A stretch of DNA of 64,000 nt from Lepiota brunneoincarnata (Eukaryota; Basidiomycota; Agaricomycetes; Agaricales; Agaricaceae). The stretch lies in assembly GCA_023014365.1 (NCBI GenBank), contig JAEBUN010000021.1, positions 806,001-870,000 of the forward strand, given 5' to 3'. Below are positions 2,210 to 36,055 of the stretch, piece by piece. How positions within the stretch are numbered: position 1 is the stretch's first letter; every line of letters starts with the position of its first letter. Both the position numbers and the translations under genes were made by a program. The notes under the pieces were generated by a model that was given only the letters and a program-made list of their open reading frames with translations, did not search any database and was not told the DNA's origin.

Positions 2210-3643
2210 CTCCCCCTCAAGCCATGATATGCCCAAGGGCCGGTGTGAAATGCTTCACCTTAAGTGATGGAAGTGCTTTTGTGAACACATTGGCCACCAT
2301 TTTGTGTGTAGGGCAATAGATCAGCCTGATCTTGCCTTCTTTGACAACTCATCAAACAAAATGGTACTGGACATTGATGTGCTTCATCCAAGTGCAGTAT
2401 TGGTAGTCTTTTGCAAGGGCAATAGCCAATTGGTTGTCAGAGTGGAGTGTAGTGGGGGGGGAAAATCTTCTGCAAAGACCTGGGAGATGAGAGAACAAAG
2501 CCAGAGGGCTTCCTTAGCAGTGTGAGTTGCTGCCATGTATTTGGACTCTGTGGTGGACAGGATAATGAGTTCCTGTCGCTTGGCACTCCACAAAACAGCA
2601 CCACCATTGATAAGAAATGCATACCCAGAAGTGGTCCTCCTGTTCTCAGCCATGTTTCCATCTGCATCTGTATACCCTTCTAAGGTTCCCTCTCATGCCT
2701 CTGTAAGTCAATTTGAGGTCTCAAGTGCCCTTGAAGTAGTGAAAAATTCACTTTACAGCCTCCCAGTGAGCAGGGCCTGGGTTCTTGGTGAATCTTGAGA
2801 CAACCTACACAGTGTATGCAATATCTGGCCTCATGCCAATTGCTGCATACATTAGCATGCCTACAGCCTCCTGGTATGGAATTCTGGCCATAAACATAAT
2901 CTCAGCAGTTATTCTTGGGCTATGTTCTGATGTAAGTCATGTGGAGGGGTCCATAGGGATTGTCACTGGTTTTTGGTCCTCAAAACCAAAACAGTGGAGG
3001 GAGGAGTTGATGTAGGCATCCTGAGACATGCTGAGGATGTGCTGTTCATGTATGCAAGCTATCTGGATGCCAAGTAGCTAGTGTATCTTGCCCAGGTCAG
3101 TGATCTCCACATAATCAGAGATTTTTGTCTTCAGCCAAACAATGAGGGTGATGCTGGTGGCCATGAGAGTGCAGTCATTGACATGCACAGCAAGAATGGT
3201 GAGGTCAGGCTCATTGTGCTTGTAAAAAACACACTGGTCAACTTCACAGTGCATGAAGTTCAAGTTGTTGACCAGTATCTCACATAAGTGTTGATACCAT
3301 CAACATCCTAACTGTTTTAGGCTATAAAGGGTCTTCCTCAATTTGCACAGTTTCCTGGGGTGTGTAGGATCCTCAAATGCTGGTGGCTGTTGTATGTATA
3401 TGGTCTTGTCCTTGCTGAAGACACCATTTAGGTACACTCCCTTTATGTCAATCTGGTGGATCTCCATGTCTCAATCTGCTGCAATTGCCAGGATTGCTCT
3501 GATTGATGGGAGCTTAGCAACAGGTGCAAACATATCAAAATAGTCCATATCAGGGACTTGGGAGAAGCCTTGTATTTGACCACATTCCCACTAGCATCCT
3601 TCTTGGCCTTGAAGACCCACTTAGATCCAACCTCATTGATGCC
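2210..3643 (-). pseudogene. Copia-1 reverse transcriptase C-terminal part and RNase H, decayed
   Basis: Minus-strand fragments carry copia signatures: EVGSKWVFKAKKDASG at about 3640-3590, DMDYFDMFAPVAKLPS near 3530, VDQCVFYKHNEPDLTILAVHVND at 3245-3175 in pieces, and an RNase H with TTSGYAFLINGGAVLW and STTESKYMA at about 2640-2530. The frame changes several times and stops interrupt it, so no functional polyprotein remains. The upstream piece of the same RT lies at 7356-7598, beyond the hAT insertion. Confidence 0.8.
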
Positions 3644-3651
3644 CTCTGGGG

Positions 3652-6600
3652 TAGGGGTGCCAAAGTTCAGTTCAGTTCAGTTCAGCATCCTCTCAGCCTG
3701 AACCTGAACCTGAACTGAACCCCCCAAACTTGGTTCAGGAGGTTCAGTTCAGGGTTCAAACAGGTTTGAACTTGAACCTTTTGATACTATGTCATAAACA
3801 TGTTTATATTGGCAATAAACTAATCAAAGTTCCATTCCTTGAGCTCCCATTCCTTTGCTTCTACTCCCCCATCTAGAAGTCCAGTTTTATACCCATCTTT
3901 TGTAATTTGTAAAGCTGTAAAGGTGGGACCTTCAAGTGAATTGCTACTAGAGAAAGCCCATTCAGATGACACTGAAGAGCCAGGAATGGCTAGATAGTCT
4001 CTAGCCATAGTACCCAAGGTTGGATACTTTGTATGGTTGATCTAGGTAAGAAATCAGAAAAATATTTAATGCCAAAAAATAGATATAACTCACTCCCCAC
4101 CATGCTATAATATCTTCTACTGGCTCAATACCAGCACCTAAATACTCATCCAACTCATGAAACACATCATGAGTAAATGAGGATGCCTGGGATAATCGTT
4201 GTTGCATTGCTCAAGCTTGTGCAGAAGTTCCCACTTCTGAAAAAATATTTGATGAGTGTTGGAACTGTGGCTTGGGTTCCTTATAATATGCCTTAAACTG
4301 AACCAAGCCATTAGAAAAGTCAAGATAAATCAACAAATATTACACACCACTTCTCGGAATTGATCTTTTGCTTTTTGACAATCAGCTGGAGCCCACTTTT
4401 CTTCAAAATGCTCCATTTTGCAGCTTGGATCAAGCACTAGTATAATTATTAGCAGAAGGTCAAGAATAGGAATAAAATCATACCAAGAGAAATAAAATAA
4501 GCATCAGTATCAGCAATTGTTGTATGCCATTTTTTGAGCTTATCTATCCCTGCTTGAATACCATCCTTAACCTGTGCAAACCTTGGATGAATTATCAAAT
4601 GCTCCCATTTTTCAATCACATATTCAAGCTTAGGGAGAGCATGAGTGATGGATGAATGAGTAGCAGATGAAAATGATGACTGAACACTGGCAGGAACCTA
4701 ATAGAAATGAGAAAACTTTGTATGAGTAGAATAAATATTACTTACTGCCAAAGTATCTTGCATGAGCTCAAGAAGCTTCCACTCCTCCTCAACCAAGTAA
4801 TAATCCAAATACATCTTGCCTTTTAACTTAGGAACAGATCCAGAGTCATCTGCATTTTTGATAAATTTACAAACTCCCTGTTCCAGGATTCAGAATACAC
4901 TCAATTTAAATATTAAAAAAAACATACCTTCTTCAATAGGAGTAATCATTCAAGGAGATTATACATTGAACTCCAGCGAGTATGAACCCATTTGACAAGC
5001 TCAAGTTCAGGTACTGATTCCTCAGCACAGCAAATAGAAAAGTACTTCTTTGCCTGAGGTGATAAGCAGACCTTAAAAGATATATAATTTATAAGTTAAT
5101 ATTTGGTATTGCTTTGGGAAAGAGAAATACCTGAGTAATAAATGCTAAGACCTTTCCAAGAACATCTCCTGCATCAAATGAAACAGCATTATCTACATCT
5201 TCATCATCCTCAACTTCACCCAATTGATCCCAGTCAATTTCATCCTTATCAGATGAGACTGCTTTAGCTGTAAAATGAGTAGGGCAGATAGCTTCAATAA
5301 AAGCCTTAGCACCAAGATGAATAGTATGCTCAATGCATCTTCAATTTAAAACATATCAGAATAAAATATAAACCAAATCAAAAATCACTCACCTAATATG
5401 CCACTTACGAGCAATCCACCTATTTGAAGGTGTGTCAAGTGTATGTTGAAGCACCTTGAGAGCTTTGTCATTTGCTGAAGCATTATCAGTAGTAATCCAA
5501 CCAATCTATAAATCATCAATCAGTTGAAGTCATTTAAAAATCATAAATCAATACTTTGGACTGAATTTTGTACTCATTGAAAACACCAAGAACAACTGCT
5601 GCCAAATTCTCACCACCATGGTTGCCTTCAATCTCAGGAAAACCTATAAGGTGTGACTTCAGCCTCCAGATATGTGGTTGATCAGGAGGAGAAGCAATGT
5701 ATTGAACAGTAATGGCAAGAAAAGGTTTCATATCTTCTGTAGTCCACCCATCAAATGTGGAAGATATTTGTCCTGGTTGATTCTGAGATATAGTCAGTAC
5801 CAATACTAGAAGATATGTCAAAAGAATATACCTGAAGGACTTTTGAAAGACAGTAGACCACAATCTTTGCTTTGTGTTTCACCTCTTCTGACATCTTGGT
5901 ATGGTGAGGAATATCACTTTCCCTTGTTGATGGTCACTGATAAATAAGAAGCTTGCGGAATGATGGCTGGAGAAATAATTAGCTCCAAATCATCAAGAAT
6001 GAATATGGAACCTTACCTGATCATCCTCAACTAGCCAATGAGTTAAATGCTCAATAAGCCCTTCCTTTGTCCACTTCACAGTTGGCACTATGAATGTATC
6101 AAGTGTTTTCTGGGCAGTCACACTCTCCTTGTCAGTTGGTTTAAATACACAAGACCTCTCAGCTTCAGCAAGTGTGACAGGATGAGGCACAAAATCCAAC
6201 TCCTGGGCTCGCATCATATAAAATTCACCATGTGTCTTCCAATTCCTGATAAACCAATGAAAAAAGAGTATAGATTTTAGAAACAACTTTACATACTGCC
6301 CAATATGTTTATGACAAGTTGTTACACTCCCAGTCATCCAAATACTCTTATCAGGATCACACCCTTTTTGTTTTGCAAGATGACTACAGGATCCACATAT
6401 GTTAGAAGTGAATTAATACAAGAACAAGTTTACTTACCAGCAGATCTCACACCACCACCCCTTTATCTGAACACCATCTTTTAAATGTTCTTCCATCTGC
6501 CAGCATGCCCGAATGTCTTCGGTTTGCTCATTGCAGCCACGATGAGCATGTTTTTGCTGGAAAAAATAATATTAGTATGCCAATTATCAGTAATATTTGA

Positions 6601-7347
6601 AGCCTGTGAAGTGGCTGCCTGATCTTCTTCAGGAGGACCAGCTGCCTCCACTGACTCTTTCAGGGGTATGTTGTCTTGCTTTGAGGCTGTAAGACATATC
6701 AGATATTGATTAAAACATGGAGGACAGGGGCCAGACCTTTTTGAGGTGGAAAAAAAGCAGTGAGAGTGACCAGACCTGGGTCTGGATCCCCTTGAGCCTT
6801 CCATGTTGGTTTGGAGGTGCATTGATTGGGGAGACATTGACTAGTGACACACTGTGCTGGCTGTTTACCCTTGAGTCCTTGAGATTCATGGGTTGGCTCA
6901 AGGGTGTCACTTGCAGGAGGGAGGGGTGTTGTTTCAGCACTTGGTGAGTAATTTCAATCGATCTCAGAGGCCTCCCTGAGCGAACTGTCCAGATTTAGTG
7001 CACAGTTGTCTTCGGACATGATAAGCACAGGACACATGGGGATTTGGCAGTGTTGATAGTGTGGGGGAAAGAGTGAGTGAAAAATCAATGAAGTTGGAAC
7101 TTTGTTGATGTTCAGCAAGCACTGCCACTGCCACTGCAGCCCTCACCACTGATCACCCTCAACTCATGCATTTGAACACATTCAAATGTGTTTGGACATG
7201 TTCAGGTAGGCTGGCCACAAGGCCAAACCTTGAACCGAGTCGACAGGCCTATGCCTGAACCCAAACCCAAACCGGACTGAACCTTTGGGTTCAGTTCAGG
7301 GGGTTCAGGTTCGAACCAAACTTCTGAACCAAACTTCAGTACCCCTA
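3652..7347 (-). mobile_element. hAT-superfamily DNA transposon with perfect 8-bp TSD
   Basis: Ends are TAGGGGTGCC.. on the left and, reverse-complemented, TAGGGGTACTGAAG on the right. This hAT-like terminal inverted repeat is flanked by CTCTGGGG at 3644-3651 and 7348-7355. Removing 3652-7347 plus one TSD rejoins the copia-1 RT frame (..WELVDAPE + INEVGSKW..). Subterminal zones at 3660-3790 and 7215-7340 are packed with CTGAACC/GGTTCAG motifs. The transposase is on the minus strand. Confidence 0.92.
3820..6545 (-). pseudogene. hAT transposase, intron-rich and decayed
   Basis: Minus-strand exons in order: a BED-type zinc finger (GWWCEIC before an intron at about 6385-6440, then TTCHKHIGQY); a linker with FVPHPVTLAEAERSCVFKPT; the catalytic-domain segments STFDGWTTEDMKPFLAIT (about 5760) and IGWITTDNASANDKALK (about 5500); LVKWVHTRWSSMYNLL (about 5000); and the C-terminal hAT dimerisation region DYLAIPGSSVSSEWAFSSS (about 3990), ending at 3820. 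Roughly ten short GT..AG introns separate them. An in-frame TGA after SMYNLLE and other breaks indicate inactivity. The start upstream of 6545 is unclear. Confidence 0.75.
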
Positions 7348-20093: not shown

Positions 20094-21281
20094 GCGACAT
20101 TGCCCTCAGTCTTTCAACAGACAGCTTTGGTCCATTCAAACAGTGTGATAAGACATGCTGGCCCATCCTCCTTGTCAACTACAATCTCCCCCCTGAAATA
20201 TGTTTCCAGAAACAGTACCACATTCATGTTGGTACAGTCCCAGGTCCAAAAAAGCCTTGGGATTGGGATTTGTTCTGCTGGCCACTTGCTCAAGAACTCA
20301 TCCAACTTGAAATGGGTATCAAAGCTTTTGATGCGATCAGTCAATCAGTATTCTTGCTTCATGCCTATCTCATTGTAGCATTTGGTGACATTCTGGCCAT
20401 GGCCCTAATCATGCGCATGAAAGGGCAGAATGGTATCAGCCCATGCCATATCTGCAACATCAAAGGGATTTGCTCACAATCTCACACTTACTATGTCCCT
20501 CTTTGATGAGATAAGATCCCTGAAGCAAATCCTCCTCGATACAACCCATCTAATCTCCCCATTCATACTCATGAGGAGTTTTTAGAGCAAGCGCATGCTG
20601 TAGAAATGGCCCTCAGTAACTCCATACATGAAGAGCTTGCCAAACAATATGGCATCAAAGGGATACCGATCCTCAGTACCATATCTTCACTCTCATTCCC
20701 ATCTTCATTCCCATTTGACTTCATGCACCTCATTTGGGAAAATTTGATTCCCAACCTCATTCTGTTCTGGACTTGTGAATTCAAGGACCTAGATCACCAA
20801 GGCAAAGGTTGTGTTATTGCAATGCAAATCTGGAATGAAATTGGTGCGGCTATGGCAGCATGTGGTGCAACAATCCCAGCAGCTTTTGGAGCTTCAGTAC
20901 CCAACATTGTGACTAAATGGTTGCAAATGACTGCCAAGATGTATGCCATCTGGACACTCTATATTGCTCCAGTTGTGCTCTGTGGCAGGTTCACAAACAC
21001 AAAGTACTATGACCATTTCATGCAGCTTGTCAAACTTTTGAAGCTCTGCTTGTTGTTCAAGCTCACAGAAGAGGAATTGAAACAGATTGATGAGGGTTTC
21101 AAGTCTTGGGTTCAGATGTATGAGAAGTGAGTATCTACCTTCTACGTTGTGCTCTTATACTTAAATCAATGCAGACTGTACTATCAAAATGACCCTGTTT
21201 GACTCTCTGCTTGTCCTCTGACTCTCCATGCCCTTCTTCATATTGCATGGGGTATCCAGGTGGTGGGTCCTGTCTGGACGT

Positions 21282-22567
21282 TGAAAAGGTAAAAACGTTC
21301 GTATGTTTTAATATGGATAGTGGGCTTGTTTTCACTAAGCTTAGCCAAAATTCGATAAGCTTAAGCTAATACAAGTGGAATGAGATAGATAAGGAACAGT
21401 TTCGTCTTTTAGGGTGTTCTGGGGGTGTGTTCTGACAGCGAAATTCAAGAGAGTAGTGTTTTAGAGGTTAACGAACAGCCGTTGAAGTTATCTTAGCCGT
21501 ACGGTGCAACAATGAAAGGACAATCCCTGTCAATTCAAAGCGCGGGGTCTCTAGTCTCTGGTCTCTGGTCTCTGTCTCTGTCTCTGTCTCTAGCACTCTG
21601 GAACTCTAAACTCTGAACTCTGGTCTCTGTCTCTGTCTCTGGGTTGGTCGACGACCGAAGAATTCACACTTAACGACGCACACTAAATAGCCCTCTGAAA
21701 CCGTTCTTGATCACGGCTCGCAGACTTGCGTGTGGAAGCGGGGGTGAGACCTCTTGCTTCTCCACTGAACAAGTGCGACCGTATTTATATTGTTTAGATA
21801 CATACGAGAGATAGTAAATATGAAATAGAAAACAATAAGCTTAATTGTTACAGGCACTGTAGAACATTTTGGAAGGTTCGGCAGCATTTCTACCTTGCCC
21901 TGGGTTATGGGTTTTTCTCTGATTAACGAATGGCAATCCAGCCAGACGTGTTTCGTGCTCGTCTGCATTATTCTGCGTCCACGCGAGCGCGTTAAGACTC
22001 CGGATCAATTATGATCGGAATGTATAGCGGATGGACAGTCCCTTGATCCGTTGTAATTAATCTCAGTTAAGCAATAGGCCGAGGTGCCGGGACCCACAAA
22101 GCACTCGTTAATTAGGAGTCTTTGATATTTCTAGGGTTTTGGGCATCGGGTGTCGCCTCCCGAACGTTGAACGTTCCGTTCCGTGGTCCGGTCATCATTA
22201 TTGGGCTCGCTTTCGACGTAATACTCCTGCGACAGCCGCTAGGTACATTCTTTATATTCAAACGCATCCGGGTTCATCAGAAAACTGCTCGTAAGGTCCC
22301 TTGATGCGACCGGAGTATACTCGATAGACTATGTAGAGTCCTGAATCCCTCTGGAAAGCGTTCCGATAGTTTGGTTCACTAAGCTTAGTGATAATGAACT
22401 GGTTTGAACACTTCCAAGGCTCGAATATCCTCAATTCGGTCGAACTGGCTACTACGGGACATAGTACCAATCCTCTATAGAGTTCTTTAATGATATAGCC
22501 AATGATTCTATGTAGAGAATCGTTCCGGAGTACGGAATTCATGTATAGGCGTGAAATCGGCGTATCA
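21282..22567 (-). repeat. Gypsy A 3' LTR
   Basis: Plus-strand ends TGAAAAGG..GTATCA. It contains four TAAGCTTA palindromes (21336, 21356, 21836, 22380), a (GTCTCT)n-like tract at 21547-21650 and a minus-strand TATAAATA at 21782-21789. Confidence 0.95.
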
Positions 22568-22578
22568 TCTCCCCCTAA
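22568..22578 (-). other. Gypsy A polypurine tract
   Basis: Minus-strand TTAGGGGGAGA directly precedes the 3' LTR start (TGATACG). This is the expected site and composition for plus-strand priming. Confidence 0.75.
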
Positions 22579-22892
22579 CCAATTGCTGACTGTCCTCAGT
22601 CATTATCTCCTTCAAATTCGCAGTATCTGAGTCTCTCTGACGCGCTCTATGGTCTAGAACGTTCACCAGCTTCGAGGGTAGCGCACTTTCGCTAAGCTTA
22701 TTCCAAATGATGTCATGTCACCGAGTTTAAATGTATAGATCAACTGCTTGTTGCTATAGCTTAAATTTTTATCTCTTTATTGGGTCTTTTAAATGTCCCA
22801 AGGTCTCGTTTCCTCTCTTTCGTTCTCCCTCTCACTCTTTATTCGTTTTATCCTGCTCGCAGATCACTCCTTAACGCCCACTTCTATCAACA

Positions 22893-24931
22893 ATGGACAG
22901 AAACACGCGCAGCAGCAAACGTGCCCGATACGAAGTAGACACGGACTCCTCCTCTGGTGAGTAGAGTTCGTGTTACAATCATCTTTGTTTTTCCTCACAC
23001 TGTCCTCAGACTACGCTGGGCCTAGCACTGCCCCTCCGGCCTCTCAGGACGCGCCCTCTTCGTCGATTGCGCAACGTAAGTCTCTTTTCTCTCGCTCTCG
23101 TTGTTTTCCTCATGCTTTCTTTGTCCTTAGGTCTCACTATTCGCCTCCCGGCGCGTCGCAACCTCCTTCCTCAATGGGAACCACCAGCACCACGTGTTAG
23201 GAGAGCTAGAGGAGGGCGCGTGGGACGAGGAGCTCGCGGAAATCGCCAGGGAGGTGTGGATAGGACCCCTCCCCCACCGTACTCGCCGCCCCGCGAACCA
23301 ACCCCTCGGCCGGCCACTCCCCTGTCCACTCCTGTGCCGCGACGCGTCATCTCGATCGCGTCACTGTGCAATCCAACTGACGAGAGTTCTGCCGGATTGT
23401 CCGCAGAACTTTCGTTAGGTATTCCTGTCGGCGGGCCCTCTGGTGGATTATCCACAGAGGCTCCGCCCAGTTCAATGTTGCTGCCTCCTCTCGCCGTCTC
23501 TCTGCGCACCCTGGACGGTGAAGGCTCGCTGGTGCTCCCTCCCCTGTGTATTGCGTCAGGTTCAGAGGTGCCGGGCCCTTCAACAAACCGCCCCTCCTCT
23601 CCTGTAGCCTCTTCGGCTACTTCTACGCGTAAGCTTAAGCCTTTTTCTGCTTATTTCTCCGCTCCTGCTAATAGTGTGCCTCATAGCTCGTATCCCTGCC
23701 GCTCTCAAAGGCAAGCAACGTGCACAGTCATCTGCGCCGCCCCCGTCGCCTCTGTTCCTGGCGAGTTCAAATTCGCCATCGCATTCTCCGGTCCCAGAGG
23801 TCTCCCAAGAAGACCTCTTCAAAATTTTTAACTGGTCCTCTACCCTGGTCGAGCGGAACGCATTGGCCTCTCCCAGGTGTCCTACGCCCTCGCTTCCTCA
23901 CTTGGCTTCTGCTTCAGTCGAGTCTCTCCCAAGTCCCGCGGAGGCTTCGCCTTCTCCAGATTTGGAGCTCCTCTTGGAGCCTTCGCCTGTTCCCCAGGAG
24001 CCGGCGTTCGTTTTTCAAGACTCATTCTTAGCTTCTCCAACCCCCGTCCCCTCTCGTTTGCCGAGCCCGGTGGTCCCAGACACATCCCAGTCCTTGCCTC
24101 CCCAAGCCGGACCTTCAGGGTCGCGTCGCGCGCGCGTAACCCTACCGAAGAAAAGCTCTAACACGCGCCCAAAGAAATATACTCCCCGGGCGCGCATCCG
24201 ACGTTCTGAAGCCGAAATAATCCGGGATCATGGATACCGGCACCCAGTCCCGCTCTTTTGTGAGGACTTTTCTAGGCTGCTGGCAGCTAGCCAGCTTTCG
24301 GTACGTTCTCCAAGTTTTTCTCGTGTTTCCTTATTAACTGTTTTGCCCCTTCCCTAGTACGTGCCGCCTCGGTCTCGGTGCACTACTTGCGCCGCTCGTA
24401 AATTGGAGTGCGAGCCTCTGGGCAAGGGTAAGAAGTGTCGCAGCTGCGACCTGTACAACTACCCCTGTACCTTCGCAGACCATCCGCGAGTCTCGGCTGG
24501 CGTTGCGAACGCCCTGGTCACGTCCTCACTGACCAGTGAATACCGTAAGTTTCTCTGTTCACTGTTTTTCCCATTTATTTACTTTTTATTTCCCAGATCT
24601 TGCTGCCTTCGCACGTGTTGCGTCCTCCAGCTTGGTCAGTCTGGAGGCCAATCGTGTTGCCTACGAGGCATCGGCCTTCCACCACCGCCGTGTAATCTAC
24701 CAGTTCGTCCAGGAGATGCAAGCTACCAGGACGGCCTTGGACGGTAACGACGTGGCGTTCGTGGAGATGGGTATGGCCGAGTCCCTCGAAGACGTCCAGG
24801 CGTTCTTCGAGTTTGCTGACAACTTTCCGGGGGTCCCGACATACGAAGAATTCGAGGAGCTCAAATCGCTCCTCTTCCTCGCTTTCCCGATGACTCAGGA
24901 TCCGGAGTCTGTCTTGGAGGACTTGAACTAG
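22893..24931 (+). CDS. Antisense accessory gene A1 of gypsy A: Zn2Cys6 cluster protein
   Basis: Six exons on the strand opposite gag-pol: 22893-22956, 23010-23075, 23131-23628, 23687-24300, 24358-24544 and 24597-24931. All introns are 52-58 bp with GT..AG ends and in phase, giving about 587 residues with no internal stop. The N terminus is MDRNTRSSKRARYEVD (basic, NLS-like). A long Pro/Ser-rich middle follows, with an Arg/Gly patch (RGGRVGRGARGN). Residues ~422-451 form C-x2-C-x6-C-x8-C-x2-C-x6-C, exactly the fungal binuclear zinc cluster spacing. The C-terminal ~140 residues look helical and acidic. The gene starts 326 bp from the 3' LTR and converges on pol. In the family this cluster binds DNA; that it binds this element is inferred. 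The acceptor of exon 4 could also be 12 bp upstream. Confidence 0.82.
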
Positions 24932-25500
24932 TGCCTGCTTCCCTTTCCTCTCTTGAATGTAATATATCCTCTTGTCCTGTATATAGTTACATTTCGCTTA
25001 ACAATTCTTGTCTCTTGGTATCTTTCTGAGTTAAGCTTAAGGCCCTTCTGGAATATCCCAAGCTAAGCTAAGGCTTCCAGCCGCTTATACGCTCATCAGA
25101 TATTTCTCTGATACTTCTGCTATGTTTATTGACATCTCAGCGCGCCACGATTCGCCATGTGTAGTGAACCGGTCATCCGTTCCGGCTTCATTTACAAGCC
25201 CGAACCCGAACCAGCCTGTACACGGGGTTTGACGCGCCATTTGCGCCACTTGGGGCCCGTCTCCCCCTAGCCAAATTGAAATCGGTGCCCTCACCGTTCC
25301 ATCCGAATCCCTGTGCACACTGATAACCGCGAGACCCTGGCGACCTGTTACCCAATAAGGCAACTGTGGTTCAGCTAGTCTGTCGAAGGCTGGCTACTCA
25401 AGATTACAGGTTTCCTAGGCCTCTCAGGTCATAAGCTTAGGGTGGAGGGTGCTCTTTATCCACTCGTCATGATTCGTCATCACTGCCGACAGCCTTTTCT

Positions 25501-25507
25501 TATAAAA
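25501..25507 (+). promoter_or_regulatory. TATA box of antisense gene A2
   Basis: TATAAAA lies 46 bp before the proposed ATG at 25553. This leaves room for a start site near 25530, and suggests A2 has its own promoter inside the retrotransposon. Confidence 0.55.
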
Positions 25508-25552
25508 GCGAGGGAGCGACGTCTCATTCTAGCAGACACTCTTCGTAAGAAA

Positions 25553-26900
25553 ATGGCTTCTTCGATCCCCAACCTTCAAGTCGAGCTCGACGATCTCATC
25601 AGCAACACCAAAGGTCGTCTTCAGCGCCTGCAAAACGGTCAAGTCGCTCGTCCCCTCGTCGAGAAGGCTCTCCTCGCATTCGACGCCCCTGGGGTATGTC
25701 TATTCTTTTCATGCTTCTCTCGCTGTTCCTCAATCATTTCTAGTCTGCTTATATTGAAGCGTTATCGGAGGATAATGAAGCTATCAAGCTTCATGTCAAC
25801 CAAGACTACGTCTTCCGTATTCGCAAGCTCTACGAAATTTACCAAAACAACTACCATTCGTCTTATGAGATGCCCGCGATCTATAAGGCGCTCTCTGAAT
25901 GCTGTAGCCGCATTAATCGCGTCCGCTCTGAAGAATCCCACAAAACCCGTACCGAAGAGGCTCAGAACCCGTCGTCCACGACTGGCTCTACTTCCTCCAA
26001 CGTTGCCGAAGGCTCTGCTGTCCCCAAACGCGTAAGCTTAGCGTTCTTTTGGCTTCAAATCGTCTTCTCATGCATAAGCTTAGCCTCGCAAGGGTCGCAA
26101 GGCCCCTATCTCTGCTGCTGTTGTGGTAGACACCGATACCGAGCCTGCGGAGAGTATGAATAGTGCCTCCAACTCCCGAGCAACTGGTGCTGACACGGTA
26201 ATCTAGCTGCTTCTCAACCTATTACATTGGCTGAGATCATCGCTCGCCTTCAGGACATGATGGTCGACGAGGAGGTCTCTCAAGCTATCGTCGAAGAGGT
26301 TCGTGTAGTTCCGCCTTATCGCAAGCGTCGTTTGTCTACCTCCGACGTGGTGCGCCAGCTCCACTCCCCCCAACCACTGATTCTGACTTCCTCTCTCTCT
26401 AGGAGACTGTCAAAAAGTCCTCATCGTCTAAAGGCTCTGTCCGTCTTCTTCCCTATTGTCAAGTTCCCAATATGAACACTAAACACTGCTGTTATGTCCG
26501 GGCTGAACAGGTTCTAGCCAAAGCCAGCGCCAATACTGCCAAACGCGCCCGTACCGAGTCTGCTTCTGATGAGCGCACCTTCGCAGGCTTATCCGGTGGG
26601 CAATTTCTCACTTCTGTTCGTTAAGCTTAGCGGTTCTGACACTTTTCCCGGGCAGCTCGTTTGCTCCAGGAACTCCAAAACCTCCTGTCTCACTCTCGCG
26701 ACGAGTACGAGTCTGAATCTCGCAGTGACGACGCTCGGTCTGTCAAATGCGACCTCAATTCGCTCAGCCGGGACTTCATCGAGGCTATTCCCTCGCTCGA
26801 AGCTAACTTAAAGAGGTTCCAATTCCTCATTCAAGAGCGCATCCGTCTCAAAAGTCTTTTGCGCAACCTCTCCGACTTGGACAAGCCCCTCCCCACTTAA
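25553..26900 (+). CDS. Antisense accessory gene A2 of gypsy A, unknown function
   Basis: Plus-strand, multi-exon. Exons 25553-25693, 25744-26031 and 26084-26197 join in phase through introns of 50 and 52 bp. Later exons (about 26236 to 26900) are less certain, with probable acceptors at about 26400, 26510 and 26655. Recognisable stretches are MASSIPNLQVELDDLISNTK, a Tyr-rich helical segment (VFRIRKLYEIYQNNYHSSYE), a Ser/Thr-rich linker with PRKGRKAP, and a helical C terminus (IPSLEANLKRFQFLIQERI) ending at TAA 26898-26900. I recognise no family. Intron 26032-26083 begins and ends in TAAGCTTA palindromes, and the stop codon also lies in one. It sits between A1 and the end of pol. Confidence 0.6.
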
Positions 26901-26978
26901 GCTTAACGCTTTTACAGTCCCTAGGATAGTTTTCCGTCGATAAGTAGATAGTTCTGTCCACAATATCAGGTTTTTTTT

Positions 26979-29900
26979 CTATCCTTCCAACTCTTCCGGC
27001 TCCCATCTGTCACTAGGCTCATCCTCAGTAGTCTCCTCCAGGGTCTTCAGTCCCTCTGGCGACAGATCTATCAACTCTTGTAATTCCGGCGGCAACGGTA
27101 TATGTTTCCTGGCTAAGTAGGGAATTACTCTGAACGCCGCCACTTTATTCTGCCATACCGAACCGTCCAACTCTGCCAGGATATAAGATCCTCCCTTTGA
27201 TCTAGATATGACCACCATGGGTCCTAGATACCTGGGTTTCATCTTCCTGTCTGCTGAGCTCTCTATAGCCGTATTTCTCACTAATACTAAATCTCCCGCG
27301 CCGAAGCGATAGTCTTTTATCTTATGCGCTGCTTGCCGTTCCATTTCCCAAGCCTTGCTAAGCTTAGTGTCTGAAACACGCTGACGCATCTCCTCAACAT
27401 GCCGAACATGTTTTGCCAAAGCCTGAGCTCGATATCCTATCAACTCGGCCGTGGTCAAGTACTTATTCGGTAGCTGCACCAGCCAAGTGGCCTCTTTGAC
27501 ATCCAAAGGTAGCGTCGGGTGCGCTCCGGTTACCAAAAAGTACGGGGAACACCCCATTCCTTTTCTAATGGTGATCCGATCTGCCCACATAACGTGCGGT
27601 AGGTGCCAATACCACTTTTTGACGTCTCCATCTGTAGCTTTGTACAACATTTGTCGCACATCCCAGTGGGGTCGCTCAATAATCCCGTTCGCTTTGGAAT
27701 TGTAAGGAGATATCGTTACTCCCTTTATCCCATATTTTTCTTCCAGCCATCGAACAGCTTTCTTAAATGGAGAACCGTTGTCCGTGACAATCTTCACTAT
27801 ACAGCCCCATCGGCAAATGATATCTTCGAATAACCACTGCGCGATCGAACTGGCGTTCTCTTTTCTCAACGCCTTTGCCTCCATCCAAGATGACAGTCCA
27901 CACCTTCCATGCACAATATAACTACACCCATTAGAACTTGGCGTCATATGTAGTGTGTCCACATGTAGCACTTGGAATATCGACGGCGTGGGCGTTACTA
28001 TTGGCGGCGTCTCGATGATCACCTTTTGCCGTTGCTGGCATAGATGGCACGATTGCACATACCAAGCTACGTCTCCTTCAACTTCCGGCCACCAGAACCT
28101 CTGCGTTATAAGCTTAGTGGTTGCGTATATTCCTCTGTGCCCTAGGAAGTCGTGGCTGGCTCGCAACATATACATACGTTGCTCCTTATCCACTACTAGC
28201 TGATGCTGACCGCTAGGACTCGTCCTATACAGCCTCCCCTCTTTATCCAAGAAGAAATGCTCTACCATATGCTTAAGCTTACGCAGATCTGGCTCATCCA
28301 AGCCTTCAGCTGCGCTACTGCCCCCTGTTTTCAGGTATTCCCTGACTTTGGGTATCCTTTCATCTTGTATTCGCGCTGTATCTGTCCTGCGCGACTCATC
28401 ATATGTTTCCTCTATCTCGGCCGACTTTTCCTCTTCGAAATCTGGCACTAGCCTGACATCCGTCATTAAGCTTAGTACTTGTCGATGGTTTTCTGGACAG
28501 GCTGGGTCTTCTATAACCCTAAGCTTAGCCTGTTGTTCATCCAAGTACTCTTCCCGGGCTTGATCCAGCTCATACTCAAAATCATACACATCACGCGCCA
28601 GACCCTGGTTGAAGCCAGAGCGACTGTCGATCTCATCGCAGAAGGCTTCCAAGGGTAAAGGATCTGCGGCCCCTGGATCTTCTTTGATCAGTTCGAACTC
28701 CTCTCCTTCATCCTCGGATCCATCGTCGAAGCGACGGGCTGTCTCATCACCGGGATAGTAGCGTCGCCTGGACAGTCCGTCCGGTCCAAAGTTCTTCCCT
28801 TCTTTGTGTACTAGCGTGAAGTGGAACGACCTAATGAAGTCCACCCAGCGGTTTACTGTGGCGTTCGGGAGCTTCCCTGGGTTGTTTAACATCCCGAAGA
28901 GAAACTTCGCATCCGTCTCCACCACTAAGTTTCTTGATCCCCACAGTAAATATTTCTCTTGTTCCAGCACCATTCTTAAGCCGCATAGCTCTCGCTTGGG
29001 CTGAGAGTATCTCTGCTGTCTTTCATCCAATAATATTGACCCAAACTTCACATAATGTATAAGCTTAGCGTCTTCTCCATCTCTCTGATATATGTAGTAT
29101 CCCACCGCCCTCCATGAGGTATCCACGGCTACTACTATGGGTTGTTTACTCGGAAATTCGGGGTTCCTGGTCGGGAAACAGCGCTGAATCGCATCTTTCA
29201 GCTCCTGCTGCGCTTTCCGTTCGTTTTCTCCCCACTCAAACTCTTGCCCTTTTTTAAGCTTTTCGTACAGAGGTGCCGCTATGGCTATGAACTTTGGGAT
29301 ATGATTCCTGCAGCGCGTAGCTGTTCCTAGAAAACCCCTTAGCTCGGAGACATTCTCGCAATCCCCCCATCTTAATATCTTCCCAATGGTGTCTGTAGCA
29401 GGCAACCGTCCTTTATATGAGCATTCAAAACCCACCACGGTGATTTCATCAGCGCAGATAGTCGTCTTGGGCCCAGAGAAGGTCCCTCCTACGTATTTCA
29501 TCCTCTGTAGAATCCTATTGACGGTCTGCATGTGTTCCCATACAAATCTTCGGATCCCTGGGTTCTCTTTCAACGTCTCTTCCGTGCCATCTGGCAACTC
29601 ATATCTAGTTTTCGGCCCTCTGATAGGTACATCATCTATGTACGGCATCGTGTATTCTGGTATCTCACTGGCTAGGATCGCTGTTACATCCTCATGGAAT
29701 ATAGGCACTGAGTTGGTCCATCCCATGGGTAATGTCACTAAGCGTAGCGCTCCAAAAGGCGTCTGGAACGTTGTTAAGTCCCGAGACGACTCAGCTAACA
29801 GTCGCTCGTCATAGCCAACATATAGATCCAGAATGCCTCCGCAAGCTCTGCCTGCGAAGTGCATCGCCAAATCTTCCGTTGCTGGCGGCAGTCCTGAATG

Positions 29901-30728
29901 CGCTATCGTCACTCTGTTCAGCGGCTCCAAGCTGTGTACCAGTCTCAAACTTTTCCCATCTTTCTTCACCACACAGAACCATCGGGATCTATAGGATGAG
30001 TTCGACGGCTCGTATACACCAGCACTAATCTTTCTCTTTATAATGGCACAGACTTCATCATAGATCGCTGGTGGAATCGGAATGGGCTTCTCCACCCACG
30101 GAGTATGTTCTACCGTCGGTATCTCGATCGGCGGGAAGAAGTCTTCCCTAAAACATCCCCTCTCCTCATCTGTCCATGCGAATGCCCTTTCCTGAAGCAT
30201 CATGACTTGGTGCATCAGCTTTCTTTCTTCTGGCCACAAGAGATCCCCTGCATGGGCTTCATCCAGCTTAAGCTTGCGCTCCTCCGTATATCTGCCTGTC
30301 GGGACAAACTCTGGAGGATGCATGCTAAGCTTAGGCATTTCTGCCAGCGGATCCCCTTTTATTTCTCGTTTTATCCTGAATTTCTCCGGTAAATCACCTA
30401 ACACTGGCCTCACTTTTAAAGCGACTGGTTTATATTTCTTCCCAGCCAGGCATTGTACAATATCTTCGTCATCCCCTTCAGTTTCGAAGACAGTCATTCC
30501 CTGACCCTCCGTATCCTGTGCGTTGGCGATGCGCCCTAGGCACGATAACGCCGTTGCTCTATCTTCCTGTGGGCAGTCCTCATCGCGTATGACTCGGTCA
30601 ATGAACATTAGCTGTAGCTCGGCCTCTGAGAAGCTTCCTTTTGCTAAGCTTAGTGTTTGTGCGACGACAGGGCCCTTCTCATCATCATAGTCTATTATAC
30701 AAGCCACCTCTCCTTGTCCCTCAGTCAA
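26979..30728 (-). CDS. pol: Gypsy A Pol: reverse transcriptase, RNase H, integrase
   Basis: 1249 codons without a stop. [22 protein letters not shown] about residue 250, LPMGWTNS about 333, catalytic YIDD about 363. RNase [16 protein letters not shown] about 530. Integrase: zinc motif ([16 protein letters not shown]) about 865-905 and DDE core ([22 protein letters not shown]) about 925-1040. No chromodomain is recognisable at the C terminus. It copies the element RNA and inserts the DNA. The frame begins at TTG 30728 overlapping the pro stop (TTGA), with no ATG there, so expression probably needs -1 frameshifting or reinitiation. Confidence 0.92.
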
Positions 30729-31858
30729 CTCATCGAGGTTTCTTGAAAATTTTGACTGTTTTCCCTAAGCTTAGGAGGATTACACTCTCCTCGAGCATAA
30801 GTTGGTAACACAGCCCGTTCTCTGGTATTTGGGTCCGTAATAACCAAGGTTTGCTCGCCACTGGCGCTATTCCTGACTTCGCTAGCCGTCATTACATCAA
30901 AGGGTCGTCCCAAGAGTACTCGATACGCGGGGTTACGAACGATGTGAACTTGCAAATAGATTGTGACTCCCCCGCAGGTAAAGCCTACGTTCTTTGCCAG
31001 TCCACAAGTCTTTTCAACCTGCCCATTCGCACTCTGCAAATTTATCGTAGTATCTGGATCCCAAGAAACTTGACATGCAATCGCCGCTTCCTGACTCATG
31101 GAGACGATCTGTGACCCGCTATCTAGCAAGGCCTCTTCCTGCCGAATCCCATTTATCAGAGTTGGCACTACTCTCAACGGCTCGCATTCTTTCGCAATAA
31201 ACACTTGCCGTCCCCTGTCTCTTCGAGGAAGTGACTCCAAGTACTGCATGATTGGATCCTGCGCTACCCAGGCTTGGGTTGCCGAGCCTTCTCGGAGCAC
31301 TGTATCATACTTCCGAGTGCCGTCTGCTAGCTCCGTTATCATGACTTGTACTGGCCCACTATTAATCTCTATATCTTCTGTATCATCGTCCCAGGGCCCT
31401 ACTCCTGCTATTAAGCTTTGACTCGTGGGTACCCGTTTTCTCATAATGCGCTCCCTATAAGCGTTCCTGTATATCGGTGACAATGCCAAGAGTTCTCCAT
31501 GCGATACTGAGGCTTCTCGCTTCAATACCCTGCTGAGTACTTCCTCCACATCGACACTCCTCTCTATAGGGGCCTGGTGCTTATACGCAGGCTCCTTCTT
31601 AGATGGTTCCATCCTTCTGACAGGCAACGGTGGCACCTCAACGACCGGGCGCAGTGGTTTCACATTTCTATATGGTAATTCCCCTGCTGCGGCACGCACT
31701 GGTTCCTCCGTTGTCTGCCCTATTTCCTCATTTTCTGATTCTTCTGATCGCTCGGAATCCGACGCGTCCTCAGGAGTCTGTCCTCTGGCGAAGGCGACCT
31801 TCTTCTTCAGAGCCGGCTCCTTCCTCGAACCCTTTAGAAACCCGACTCCGAGTTCCAA
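30725..31858 (-). CDS. Gypsy A protease ORF
   Basis: 377 codons. The aspartic protease active site is [13 protein letters not shown] about residue 245, with a later VLLGRPFD flap/C-terminal motif. The first ~120 residues are basic, acidic and Pro-rich. It overlaps gag by 25 bp at 31834-31858 in another frame and touches pol at its stop. The ATG at 31858 allows independent initiation or reinitiation. Confidence 0.85.
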
Positions 31859-33576
31859 GTCTTCGCGCCACTCCTGGTGTCCAAATACTGGCTTGCCGAG
31901 GGCGTACCATCCGTCAGACCACTAAGCTTAGCCTGTATCTGGGCCAATTGCTCGGCCAAAGACTGTATCTCGACGTTATCATCCTTTCTTGTCATAAGCT
32001 TAACCTTTGGGGTACTCCCAGCGTGGATGGCAGCTGTCTCCAACATTTCCATGCGCTGCTTCAGACGGCGGATTTCTTCTTCCGCTGGCGACCTTTGGTT
32101 TTCTGACCTCGGGAACGCTCTCTGTGCAAACACTGCTGACGTTGGTACTTGCGGTAACTCAGGCTCAACCTCCGGCAGTTCTGGTATCTGAACGAAGAGT
32201 TGTCCCTTTGTCGCATAGTACTTTGCCACTTTCTCTTTAATAGGCCCTTCTCCTCGAGGGATACTCGAGCCGTCTCCCATATATATTTTGTTCCCTTCGA
32301 CTCTAATTCGGCCGGCTTGTTTATCCGCCTCCATGTCCGGGCAGAATAACCAACTATGCCCTAATAACCAGCAGTAGAAACACTTGCGATCGGAAAGCGA
32401 CCCTGCCGGCCCACTTCCGGTATTCCTCTGGGCGTGATTATAACCGGCATGATTATGTCCGTCTTTCGCCGAGCTCTCTAAATATGTTTTTAAGGTATGC
32501 CCCTGGATATTCATGAGGTCCTTAAGCTCAGCGAGGCCACCTGCCATCTGCGAGACTTCATCCTGAAATTTCTGCTTTAAGCTTTGCAGTTCTCGCTTTA
32601 CCACCGGGTCATAAGTCCCTGTTCCGGACGTCGCAGGTGGATGGCTCATCGATGCCGAGTTTACCGGCCTCAAATCCTGATGAAGGGATCGCATAAGTGT
32701 TTTGCCAATCGAAATTTCGACAGCTTTATCCACGACAATCCTCCAATCATAGGGGTCCTCTTCGCGTAAATCCTTCGCAGTCAGTGCCGACCCATCACTT
32801 GCGGTTCTACGCGCCCCGGTGATCGCTAATCTCGCATTGAGCACATCCTGGAACACCGAGTCCAGTGCGCTCGTAAATAACTCGACTAGCTCTCGGTTCG
32901 AGACTACCGCCGGCGACTTTAGACACTTCTCTGCTTCGAGAATGAATCGCCTTTTAAAGTCCAAGACTTTATGCTCCTCATTCATCGCAATGCCTCTACT
33001 CTCTGCGCAGAGTTCCCTCAAGCGTCGCACTGAGCCCTGCTCGGCTGCCACAGCCTCGGGATACTCTTTCTTTAATCTCTCTACGAAGCCTGTCCAGCTT
33101 CCTGCTAAGAACTCCGCAAAACTCATCCACTCTTCACGGATATCCTGGTCCACATATGACACCGCCCAATTTATTCTTTCTGCCTCGTCCGTCGTCTTCG
33201 TTATCGTGAAGAGACGTTCCAGCGTCCAGAGATAATTTCTCAATGTCTGTGGTTTTGATGCATCCCACCTGGGAGCATTATTGCTAAAGGGAATTGGCAT
33301 ACGCTCGTGTCCCATTTTTCTAGCTGTAGTCGTCGTCGACGGCGTAGTTTGGTTTGTCTGTACAGTCGGAGTTGACTGTGATATCTGTGGTACCGTGGGG
33401 GCACCAAAAGGGTTCGTATGAAACGAGTTTTGGTTTGGTAACGCTAAGCTTAGCGTAGGAACGGTCTGACCGTCCTGGTTTTCGGTGTGCAGAATATGCG
33501 CTATGTTGCGAGCTGAGGCTGGCAGCCTTATAGTAATTCTGGGAGCAGTAGAGATCGGCGGTACGGCTTCTCTCAA
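31834..33576 (-). CDS. gag: Gypsy A Gag
   Basis: 580 codons. A Thr-rich N terminus is followed by a retrotransposon gag domain (NYLWTLERLF, WMSFAEFLAGSWTGFVERLK, about residues 115-275). A coiled region follows, then a zinc knuckle C-x2-C-x4-H-x4-C (CFYCWLLGHSWLFC) about residue 400, and a second coiled segment. It forms the virus-like particle and binds RNA. The ATG used is the first in the frame. The region between the PBS (33863) and 33576 is leader. Confidence 0.88.
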   Translation of the reverse strand: MREAVPPISTAPRITIRLPASARNIAHILHTENQDGQTVPTLSLALPNQNSFHTNPFGAPTVPQISQSTPTVQTNQTTPSTTTTARKMGHERMPIPFSNNAPRWDASKPQTLRNYLWTLERLFTITKTTDEAERINWAVSYVDQDIREEWMSFAEFLAGSWTGFVERLKKEYPEAVAAEQGSVRRLRELCAESRGIAMNEEHKVLDFKRRFILEAEKCLKSPAVVSNRELVELFTSALDSVFQDVLNARLAITGARRTASDGSALTAKDLREEDPYDWRIVVDKAVEISIGKTLMRSLHQDLRPVNSASMSHPPATSGTGTYDPVVKRELQSLKQKFQDEVSQMAGGLAELKDLMNIQGHTLKTYLESSAKDGHNHAGYNHAQRNTGSGPAGSLSDRKCFYCWLLGHSWLFCPDMEADKQAGRIRVEGNKIYMGDGSSIPRGEGPIKEKVAKYYATKGQLFVQIPELPEVEPELPQVPTSAVFAQRAFPRSENQRSPAEEEIRRLKQRMEMLETAAIHAGSTPKVKLMTRKDDNVEIQSLAEQLAQIQAKLSGLTDGTPSASQYLDTRSGAKTWNSESGF

Positions 33577-33862
33577 AGCTGCAACTGCTGAACCACTCGC
33601 TGTGTTCGCAGCTAAAGCGCTAACGGGATCTTTTCGCTTTCGAGAGGTACTAGCGGCGATGAGGCCTTCAGAACCTTCTGGACGATTGGAGTTCCGAGTA
33701 GTTCTCTGTTTTGGTGGGTCGACCTTCCTGAGACTGCTCTCGAAGGACGTTTTGGGTGACTTTACGGTCTTTGCTTGAACCTTTTTCTGCTTCGCAGGTG
33801 AAAGGCGGGCCAGTGTCCAAGTCTTTTGGTGTTTTGTCTCGTGAAATTCAACTGAAAACCCC

Positions 33863-33879
33863 CCTCGCGGTGGGCTCCA
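33863..33879 (-). other. Gypsy A primer-binding site
   Basis: On the minus strand, two bases after the 5' LTR end, TGGAGCCCACCGCGAGG starts with TGG as expected for pairing to a tRNA 3' CCA end. I cannot name the tRNA without the genome's tRNA set. Confidence 0.65.
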
Positions 33880-33881
33880 GA

Positions 33882-35166
33882 TGAAAAGGTAAAAACGTTC
33901 GTATGTTTTAATATGGATAGTGGGCTTGTTTTCACTAAGCTTAGCCGAAATTCGATAAGCTTAAGCTAATACAAGTGGAATGAGATAGATAAGGAACAGT
34001 TTCGTCTTTTAGGGTGTTCTGGGGGTGCGTTCTGACAGCGAAATTCAAGAGAGTAGTGTTTTAGAGGTTAACGAACAGCCGTTGAAGTTATCTTAGCCGT
34101 ACGGTGCAACAATGAAAGGACAATCCCTGTCAATTCAAAGCGCGGGGTCTCTAGTCTCTGGTCTCTGGTCTCTGTCTCTGTCTCTGTCTCTAGCACTCTG
34201 GAACTCTAAACTCTGAACTCTGGTCTCTGTCTCTGTCTCTGGGTTGGTCGACGACCGAAGAATTCACACTTAACGACGCACACTAAATAGCCCTCTGAAA
34301 CCGTTCTTGATCACGGCTCGCAGACTTGCGTGTGGAAGCGGGGGTGAGACCTCTTGCTTCTCCACGAACAAGTGCGACCGTATTTATATTGTTTAGATAC
34401 ATACGAGAGATAGTAAATATGAAATAGAAAACAATAAGCTTAATTGTTACAGGCACTGTAGAACATTTTGGAAGGTTCGGCAGCATTTCTACCTTGCCCT
34501 GGGTTATGGGTTTTTCTCTGATTAACGAATGGCAATCCAGCCAGACGTGTTTCGTGCTCGTCTGCATTATTCTGCGTCCACGCGAGCGCGTTAAGACTCC
34601 GGATCAATTATGATCGGAATGTATAGCGGATGGACAGTCCCTTGATCCGTTGTAATTAATCTCAGTTAAGCAATAGGCCGAGGTGCCGGGACCCACAAAG
34701 CACTCGTTAATTAGGAGTCTTTGATATTTCTAGGGTTTTGGGCATCGGGTGTCGCCTCCCGAACGTTGAACGTTCCGTTCCGTGGTCCGGTCATCATTAT
34801 TGGGCTCGCTTTCGACGTAATACTCCTGCGACAGCCGCTAGGTACATTCTTTATATTCAAACGCATCCGGGTTCATCAGAAAACTGCTCGTAAGGTCCCT
34901 TGATGCGACCGGAGTATACTCGATAGACTATGTAGAGTCCTGAATCCCTCTGGAAAGCGTTCTGATAGTTTGGTTCACTAAGCTTAGTGATAATGAACTG
35001 GTTTGAACACTTCCAAGGCTCGAATATCCTCAATTCGGTCGAACTGGCTACTACGGGACATAGTACCAATCCTCTATAGAGTTCTTTAATGATATAGCCA
35101 ATGATTCTATGTAGAGAATCGTTCCGGAGTACGGAATTCATGTATAGGCGTGAAATCGGCGTATCA
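33882..35166 (-). repeat. Gypsy A 5' LTR (promoter side for gag-pol)
   Basis: Near-identical to 21282-22567. The minus-strand TATAAATA at about 34381-34388 is the likely core promoter for the gag-pro-pol transcript. Palindromes at 33936, 33956, 34435 and 34979 match those of the other LTR. Confidence 0.95.
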
Positions 35167-36055
35167 ACGTATTGGGCATTTCCTATGGAGCATCATTGCA
35201 ATACTCTACTTCCATCAATCAGAAGTAGACACCACCCTTACAAATCCATCAACACCTTTGTTACAGCAGCTGCACAGCTAAATCAAATACAATTATTATA
35301 TGATCTTTATGACATGCTATCTTTGGATCCTGACAAGAAGGAAACCGACAAAACTGTCCATGATTTATGTATGTTCAACTTGTCATCACATCATTATTAC
35401 TTATTTACCTCTTGTAAACAGACCCGCTTTACATGCTTTCTGCCCTGCGACCATGTGAAACCCTACCTCCACCCATATATAACAAAGTTCTAGCTTCTTT
35501 AGCAACACGCTTCAATGTCACGAAGCAAGTTATTCAATCTGTCATAAAACCAGATCAGCTTGTTGTCCAATATGGCAGAGTAACTTGTCTTGAAGGAGGT
35601 GATCTCATGATTGCCTGTGATTTGGTTGGGAAGAGAGAGGACAGTCAGGATGCATCCTTTGTACAAGTGAGCACTATTGCCCCTTCCTGTATATGATATC
35701 TGAATGTTCCCCATTCCAGTATATTCAACTTGTAGATCGGCATGCTTGCCAAAAGAGAAGGACACCAGAATTCAGGCCATGCAATTTCTTTGGCCAACTA
35801 AAGTGCATCCTTGTTTTGGAAATCCTGTCCACACCACAACTCAACTTAGCCATGCCAATGACTGCTATCCTGGCACTTATTCACAGTGTCAAGGCAACAC
35901 GAAAAAACGGCATTTATTATTACAGTTATAAAGATTGTGGTATTGATGAAGTCGTTGATCTAGGTACAGTGCAGTGTGTTGTTGGAAGGATATTAGACAG
36001 GGGTGAGTGGGCCATCATAGATAGAAGCCCTGATATGGAGATCCAGGTGGACTAA

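Follow-up and report, generated by a model that had tools for sequence, protein, structure and literature searches.

In maize, the element-encoded TnpA protein of En/Spm, which is linked to demethylation, goes with short motifs repeated in its own element and clustered near the ends of this DNA transposon; in the Drosophila gypsy insulator, the Su(Hw) sites form one cluster that is bound by a host protein. VANDAL elements are likewise DNA transposons. In Arabidopsis they are the targets of the VANC anti-silencing proteins (PMC5735166, PMC10398659), and in the available text VANC21 binds YAGTATTAY, a motif enriched in VANDAL21, rare in other transposable elements, mainly non-coding and arrayed in one orientation, with VANC6 using motifs other than those of VANC21 (PMC5735166). 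Here we describe a Ty3/Gypsy-type long terminal repeat (LTR) retrotransposon of the basidiomycete Lepiota brunneoincarnata, at positions 21282-35166 of a window of 64,000 nucleotides (assembly GCA_023014365.1, contig JAEBUN010000021.1, positions 806,001 to 870,000, forward strand), through which an 8-bp palindrome, TAAGCTTA, is scattered.

As in the VANC/VANDAL systems, so far as the available text describes them, a short motif occurs at high density and is specific to one transposon family; motif density matters there and the binder is element-encoded, whereas here the antisense gene product A1 is a candidate only. Unlike in the VANC21 arrays of the same text, the word is palindromic and scattered, and it belongs to an LTR retrotransposon whose gag-pol coding sequence it also occupies: open reading frames (ORFs) contain 10 of the 24 distinct sites and the spacing is random-like, where the VANC21 motifs form mainly non-coding arrays. 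Because class, palindromy, scatter and coding placement differ, the element, which is known from sequence alone, was not filed as a VANC system. The initial annotation had taken VANA as the model protein; the appropriate one is VANC. En/Spm TnpA offers the same combination of short motifs repeated in their own element and an element-encoded reader (here a candidate), but its motifs cluster near the ends while the present ones are dispersed. The gypsy insulator shares repeated protein-binding sites (here putative) inside a Ty3/Gypsy element, but with a single cluster and a host binder. No dispersed motif of this kind in a retrotransposon was found in open-licence PMC titles and abstract starts, nor was TAAGCTTA found as a whole word in open-licence PMC literature.

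There are 28 copies of TAAGCTTA in the element and 29 in the whole window, the one outside being at 2172; all of these positions were given correctly in the initial annotation, as was the chance expectation of about 0.2 copies (0.19 for the element at zero order). In 100 dinucleotide shuffles of the window, the mean count was 1.00 and the maximum 4. Since eight of the 28 are four sites repeated in both LTRs, the element has 24 distinct sites. Of the 34 AAGCTT hexamers in the element, 28 are contained in TAAGCTTA, and therefore the outer T and A matter. A G just outside the word is weakly preferred (26 of 48 half-sites); extension to CTAAGCTTAG, first ascribed to most copies, applies to 11 of 28. 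Beyond this, the flanks differ among the 24 distinct sites, so that the sites are not duplicates of one another. Even spacing along the element was considered and rejected, as the coefficient of variation of the gaps (0.82) is indistinguishable from that of random placement. The sites are as follows.

21336-21343: site, 3' LTR
21356-21363: site, 3' LTR
21836-21843: site, 3' LTR
22380-22387: site, 3' LTR
22693-22700: site, upstream of A1
23630-23637: site overlapping a predicted A1 intron donor (GTAAGCTTAA)
25032-25039: site, downstream of A1
25432-25439: site, 61 bp upstream of the TATA-like TATAAAAG of A2 (25501)
26033-26040: site forming a predicted A2 intron donor
26075-26082: site forming a predicted A2 intron acceptor
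26622-26629: site, A2 intron (by eye)
26898-26905: site, A2 stop codon (by eye)
27359-27366: site, pol coding, TKLS
28109-28116: site, pol coding, TKLI
28274-28281: site, pol coding, RKLK
28467-28474: site, pol coding, LSL
28520-28527: site, pol coding, AKLR
29060-29067: site, pol coding, AKLI
30269-30276: TAAGCTTG in the window; TAAGCTTA in 18 copies outside the window's subfamily
30326-30333: site, pol coding, PKLS; TAAGCTCA in the same 18 copies
30645-30652: site, pol open frame, 5' of the ATG
30766-30773: site, protease coding, PKLR
31923-31930: site, gag coding, AKLS
31995-32002: site, gag coding, VKLM
33445-33452: site, between 5' LTR and gag ATG
33936-33943: site, 5' LTR
33956-33963: site, 5' LTR
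34435-34442: site, 5' LTR, 46 bp upstream of the TATA-like TATAAATA
34979-34986: site, 5' LTR

The ten ORF sites are in gag, protease and pol on the minus strand; the site at 30645 falls in the pol open frame, 5' of the first pol ATG. The word had been thought to be read in more than one frame, which holds to the extent that nine of the ten are read as K-L and one as L-S-L. It had also been placed in coding regions of both strands. This stands for the minus strand; on the plus strand, neither the exons of A1 (all) nor exons 1-3 of A2, as modelled, contain a site, those of the A1/A2 region lying in predicted introns, in the neighbourhood of promoters and, judged by eye, at 26622 in a more downstream A2 intron and at 26898 on the A2 stop codon. 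The sites of this region can also be read stop-free in some frame and the A1 and A2 exon models are transcript-free predictions from sequence, so that the absence of sites from these exons is provisional.

Comparison with the other copies of the family gives good support for selection on the 8-bp word as DNA. The window copy (L009) was excluded from these comparisons and alignment gaps were scored as differences; thus in copy L042 the site at 23630 was scored as lost though the word is intact across a gap, and the site at 26898 is partly deleted. Twenty-nine further pol-region loci (L010-L038), 13 near-identical to the window copy and 16 of a second group at ~93-97% identity, each retain all covered sites or all but one or two. 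More diverged copies keep 21 of 24 (L041+L047), 15 of 16 (L045), 7 of 8 (L046), 8 of 9 (L048) and 7 of 10 (L042). In this family CpG decays quickly: making up 12% of positions, it accounts, through C-to-T or G-to-A changes, for 238 of the 326 base differences found in the 13 young copies. For this reason the tests of selection exclude or match CpG. In L021, L041+L047, L042, L045, L046 and L048, non-CpG differences number 12 of 656 within the word and 117 of 1481 outside it (the ten positions on either side, at distances 4-13 from the centre), with a step at the edge of the palindrome and both half-sites constrained. Given trinucleotide context, 50.0 differences would be expected at the sites of the six copies pooled, against the 12 observed; taken singly, the copies gave P = 0.031 (L021), 4e-5 (L041+L047), 0.15 (L042), 0.006 (L045), 0.003 (L046), 0.10 (L048) and 0.055 (L038). 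Whole words were retained in 72 of 82 cases, compared with 51.8 for CpG-free, coverage-matched control words (P = 0.0003, 20,000 draws); shared ancestry of the copies affects both sides alike because the draw is over words. These controls bear on the view that the array is an inherited accident, left by an ancestor rich in copies or by a word that is slow to mutate. The young copies do share descent and the word is CpG-free, but the pooled controls matched for composition, CpG and trinucleotides still show a deficit of change at the sites, the flanks of the distinct sites differ, and we regard such an accident as very improbable.

Within coding sequence, the constraint could in principle belong to the K-L dipeptide that nine of ten ORF sites encode. 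However, codon shuffles that preserved the protein (2000 each) seldom create the word, with means of 0.01 in gag, 0.012 in protease and 0.045 in pol against 2, 1 and 7 observed. Synonymous divergence (dS) between the pol of the window and that of diverged copies is 0.19-0.35, with a non-synonymous to synonymous ratio (dN/dS) of 0.07-0.19, and no synonymous change was seen in the coding sites of any of five copies, where 3.3 (L021, P = 0.038), 3.0 (L038, P = 0.048), 3.7 (L041+L047, P = 0.024), 1.9 (L045, P = 0.147) and 3.3 (L048, P = 0.036) were expected; the conservation beyond amino-acid needs that the initial annotation had anticipated is thus borne out. Across the ten mapped copies, 1 of 33 synonymous-capable positions in sites ever changed, compared with 310 of 1847 outside. 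In 27 pol homologues (55-67% identity, chosen from 120 among 1464 and aligned), a core residue of the seven pol sites is shared, on average, by 11.1 of the 27, fewer than the 16.2 for pol residues as a whole; 3 of 14 such residues are kept in at least 25. The residues being poorly kept in relatives, the protein mostly does not need them; the DNA does. As the LTR and other non-coding sites are also left unexplained, and indeed refute it, constraint on K-L deserves practically no credence.

One position has turned over. Among copies that belong to other groups than the window's, all 18 with coverage of both positions (the 16 second-group copies, L041 and L048; three mapped copies lack coverage) read TAAGCTCA at 30326 and have a perfect site at 30269, a state found in 0 of 13 copies of the window's group, where 30326 is the site and 30269 reads TAAGCTTG. 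Within one lineage, then, a site disappeared and a new one arose at a distance of 57 bp, which is what selection on the local number of sites would produce. Footprint, matched controls, absence of synonymous change, poorly kept residues and this loss with gain all uphold the earlier suggestion that selection acts on the DNA.

The word is a perfect palindrome with both halves conserved, in coding and non-coding sequence alike, and therefore points to a symmetric protein on duplex DNA. The same self-complementarity would suit a role in RNA, with UAAGCUUA serving dimerisation or packaging of the genomic RNA, or splicing of the antisense genes: GTAAGCTTA is predicted to act as intron donor at two sites, 23630 and 26033, and at 26075 a predicted acceptor is formed by the word. 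Most sites, however, are away from predicted splice junctions, both half-sites are constrained, and in minimum free energy folds the sites are fully unpaired in 2 of 24 cases versus 15 of 120 control words on the minus strand (2 of 24 versus 16 of 120 on the plus strand), so that an RNA-level role seems to us quite improbable.

The word is a trait of one retrotransposon family. Over the 55.6-Mb assembly (95 contigs) there are 5370 copies of TAAGCTTA, compared with 842, 419 and 675 of the control palindromes ATTCGAAT, TTAGCTAA and AATCGATT, which disposes of the concern that it is equally frequent genome-wide, just as its retention in the copies examined disposes of the concern that it is absent from the rest of the family. 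LTR-type site pairs (11-13 bases between) number 557, internal pairs spaced as 28467/28520 and 26033/26075 number 128 and 124, and the reversed pair patterns 0. Four sites per LTR and 20 per internal part give ~4700, so that the family plus background suffices for the genomic excess. Among single-site loci compared with the element, L001 and L002 are dissimilar to it, and L003/L005 and L007/L008 each represent one LTR place. In the 6 kb examined of each of two further presumed Gypsy families (L043 and L044, identified through an integrase zinc-binding domain within frames of 1222 and 1304 amino acids and not counted as family copies), a length that takes in part of the element, TAAGCTTA occurs 0 times and no 8-bp palindrome is repeated. 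It is this comparison, together with the sufficiency of family and background, that assigns the word to one family. Separately, the 557 LTR-type pairs beside ~125 internal ones suggest many solo or partial LTRs of the family.

A host-encoded factor (a transcription factor, remodeller or boundary protein) could have been recruited to the sites for expression, with A1 and A2 doing something else. The sequence evidence for such a factor is the same as for an element-encoded one, since it does not fix the identity of the binder; TATA-like boxes of gag-pol and A2 have sites 46 and 61 bp upstream, respectively, and the genome holds a stand-alone A1-like gene. In Magnaporthe, the available text provides a precedent in the host remodeller MoIsw2, reported on palindromic motifs linked to retrotransposons (PMC11481914). 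On the other hand, there is little enrichment of TAAGCTTA outside the family, the two other presumed Gypsy families lacking it over 6 kb each, which would leave a host protein that recognises the word with little else to do, and the sites inside gag and pol exceed what promoter recruitment needs. We consider a host factor unlikely, though the most serious of the alternatives.

The element carries its own candidates between pol and the 3' LTR, where A1 and A2 lie on the plus strand, antisense to gag-pol. Its parts are as follows.

21282-35166, minus strand: Ty3/Gypsy-type LTR retrotransposon, both of whose ends are present, with gag-pol read from the minus strand
21282-22567, minus strand: 3' LTR, 1286 bp, four sites
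22893-24931, plus strand: antisense gene A1, predicted model of six exons, ~587 amino acids, modelled exons site-free
24358-24544, plus strand: A1 exon encoding a cluster akin to Zn(2)-Cys(6), CX2CX6CX8CX2CX6C, whose six cysteines never vary among the five sequences aligned
24597-24931, plus strand: last exon of A1, where a long helix is predicted at the N-terminal end and could form a dimer coiled coil; mean predicted local distance difference test score (pLDDT) 63.9
25553-26900, plus strand: predicted antisense gene A2 with several introns; site 26898 begins with the TAA stop codon of the gene
26979-30608, minus strand: pol ORF, 1209 amino acids, seven sites; RNase H and integrase zinc-binding domain
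30725-31612, minus strand: protease ORF, 295 amino acids, one site; PF13975
31834-33315, minus strand: gag-like ORF, 493 amino acids, two sites; named by position, without Pfam match
33882-35166, minus strand: 5' LTR, 1285 bp, four sites as in the 3' LTR

The assignment to Ty3/Gypsy rests on the LTRs, target-site duplication, protease, RNase H and integrase zinc-binding domain; RVT had no Pfam match in the window copy of the element. The duplication is 4 bp, ACGT, read directly from the sequence at 21278-21281 and 35167-35170. The two LTRs are three substitutions and one indel apart, and TATAAATA starts at 34388 (minus strand) in the 5' LTR, 46 bp downstream of the site at 34435. Each LTR also has TCTCTG-type short tandem repeats (21550-21640 and 34150-34240), and the ORFs flanking the element (20606-21130 and 35101-36055) resemble, by eye, fragments of another mobile element that hosts the insertion; that at 20606 has no Pfam match. 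The pol protein has 1464 relatives at E <= 1e-20 in the protein collection, the closest named among the matches listed being integrase-catalytic proteins of Agaricus bisporus (67% identity), and no match in a search of IMG/VR. The layout of A1 and A2 is not new, because antisense extra ORFs are known between pol and the 3' LTR in plants (Retand, Grande and RIRE2; PMC11963269, PMC7264820), and the title of a reference in PMC7264820 points to one, brtn, in Boty of Botrytis. As far as the available text goes, the plant ORFs share position and orientation with A1/A2 and differ in their proteins; TRP28 of Retand has predicted DNA binding and a role given as unknown, and about half of Retand elements have tandem repeats in the antisense-ORF region, no dispersed palindrome being described there (PMC11963269).

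A2 was modelled by script over exons 1-3 (to 26197) and by eye thereafter; in a predicted 52-nt intron at 26032-26083, the palindrome supplies both the donor, GTAAGCTTAG, and the acceptor, CATAAGCTTAG. A2 too is conserved (dN/dS 0.12-0.37) and its model has a basic KRPRKGRKAP stretch, so it might be the binder, alone or in a complex with A1. No DNA-binding domain was detected by Pfam in the 181 amino acids of exons 1-3 (best E 0.03, unrelated families), nor was there a match of one exon in NCBIfam, these scans having covered the earlier exons only. We regard a binder that involves A2 as improbable, less so than an RNA-level role.

A1 has the better credentials. The fungal Zn(2)-Cys(6) cluster follows CX2CX6CX5-12CX2CX6-8C, and its proteins often dimerise on DNA through a coiled coil. 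The spacing of the six A1 cysteines (C8, C11, C18, C27, C30 and C37), invariant in 5 of 5 aligned sequences, fits this pattern; with E values up to 10 allowed, 5 of 5 A1 members match PF00172 (Zn_clus), the best at E 0.0017, and the sole PDB sequence match is RSC30 (E 6.3). A long helix is predicted after the cluster, with pLDDT <50 at residues 1-12 and 93-110, and dN/dS of 0.04-0.18 indicates purifying selection on the zinc and C-terminal exons. Residues 330-587 had no match at E <= 0.001 among ~5.8 billion proteins, with candidates limited to those of similar length and shared words, and an alignment search with the last exon returned P0121 alone, which equals the window's own exon except for the first residue. 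As these searches with the C-terminus of A1 found no relative other than the window's own exon, where pol has 1464, A1 and the word may be joint, lineage-limited acquisitions, although relatives without short exact words in common would escape the search.

The stand-alone A1-like gene, with ~61% identity in the last exons, occurs in two near-identical places (L039 and L040, 97-99% identical, neither a copy of the family); in L039, at 2382-3939, it keeps the six cysteines, and the two exons compared are free of stops. In 10 kb of each place, nothing else of the element was found. A1 may derive from this gene, or the gene may be a captured or domesticated copy of A1. In L039 it has a histidine-kinase-like ORF nearby (by eye) and is surrounded by diverged duplicated blocks (755-2266 and 5455-6708, 76-79% identical). 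CACTTGCGG, present in five copies in each place, was considered as an alternative motif and dropped, because L039 and L040 are near-identical duplicates with internal repeats.

Our preferred explanation, held with somewhat more confidence than doubt, is that the TAAGCTTA copies are binding sites for a dimeric protein, with A1 as the likeliest reader marking its own element. Each site would be a double-stranded target for a symmetric DNA-binding protein, and the element would have evolved and retained about two dozen of them over LTRs, promoters, introns and coding sequence. A1, putatively of the Zn(2)-Cys(6) type, is a plausible but unproven binder. Bound along the whole element, it might label the element as self and hold its promoters in an active state or counter silencing, which is the weakest step; host genes without a dense array would stay untouched, by analogy with VANC on VANDAL transposons. 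The strong CpG decay in the family is a methylation-type signature and implies methylation-type silencing, and as the copies are subject to such mutation, anti-silencing would have a target. In the youngest copies, 10 of 367 CpG within 25 bp of sites have decayed versus 228 of 4186 elsewhere, a weak dip (P = 0.027, uncorrected). For the role we lean to a combination of transcriptional activation, with which the sites 46 and 61 bp upstream of the TATA-like boxes of gag-pol and A2 agree, and VANC-like anti-silencing, of which either might act alone.

Several observations tell against this explanation. The Zn_clus score of the A1 exon in the window, 18.9 bits, is under the gathering score of 21, and the unrelated zf-ChsH2 outscores it there (22.6 against its own cut-off of 23.2; found in 2 of 5 sequences), so that while selection on DNA agrees with the initial proposal of sites for an element protein, possibly A1, the identity of A1 as that protein gains less from these models. 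The structure model of the zinc exon is poor (pLDDT 48.5), the first exons of A1 are less constrained (dN/dS 0.22-0.50), and TAAGCTTA was not found near the stand-alone A1-like gene in 10 kb of each of L039 and L040. Zn(2)-Cys(6) proteins usually read CGG-like half-sites. CpG decay near sites is not lower in older copies, the site turnover is a single event on the tree, and P < 0.05 was reached in only 3 of 10 copies for word retention and in 4 of 7 for the context test, so that the weight rests on the pooled tests.

The fuller proposal, to which we give tentative and rather less than even credence, is that the word forms a self-recognition code across the whole retrotransposon, ORFs included, which is read by the element's own antisense zinc-cluster protein to open chromatin selectively. 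If true, it would be a retrotransposon counterpart of VANC that evolved independently in fungi and shapes site turnover and codon choice. How fungal retrotransposons achieve their own expression under CpG mutation or methylation is, as far as we know, little understood. With the word and a candidate reader in one element, >100 internal copies and hundreds of LTR-type pairs, the family suggests that a code of this kind may prevail over codon usage in gag-pol, and it makes a clean test system, which could be used to ask whether class I elements carry an anti-silencing or self-activation code of their own.

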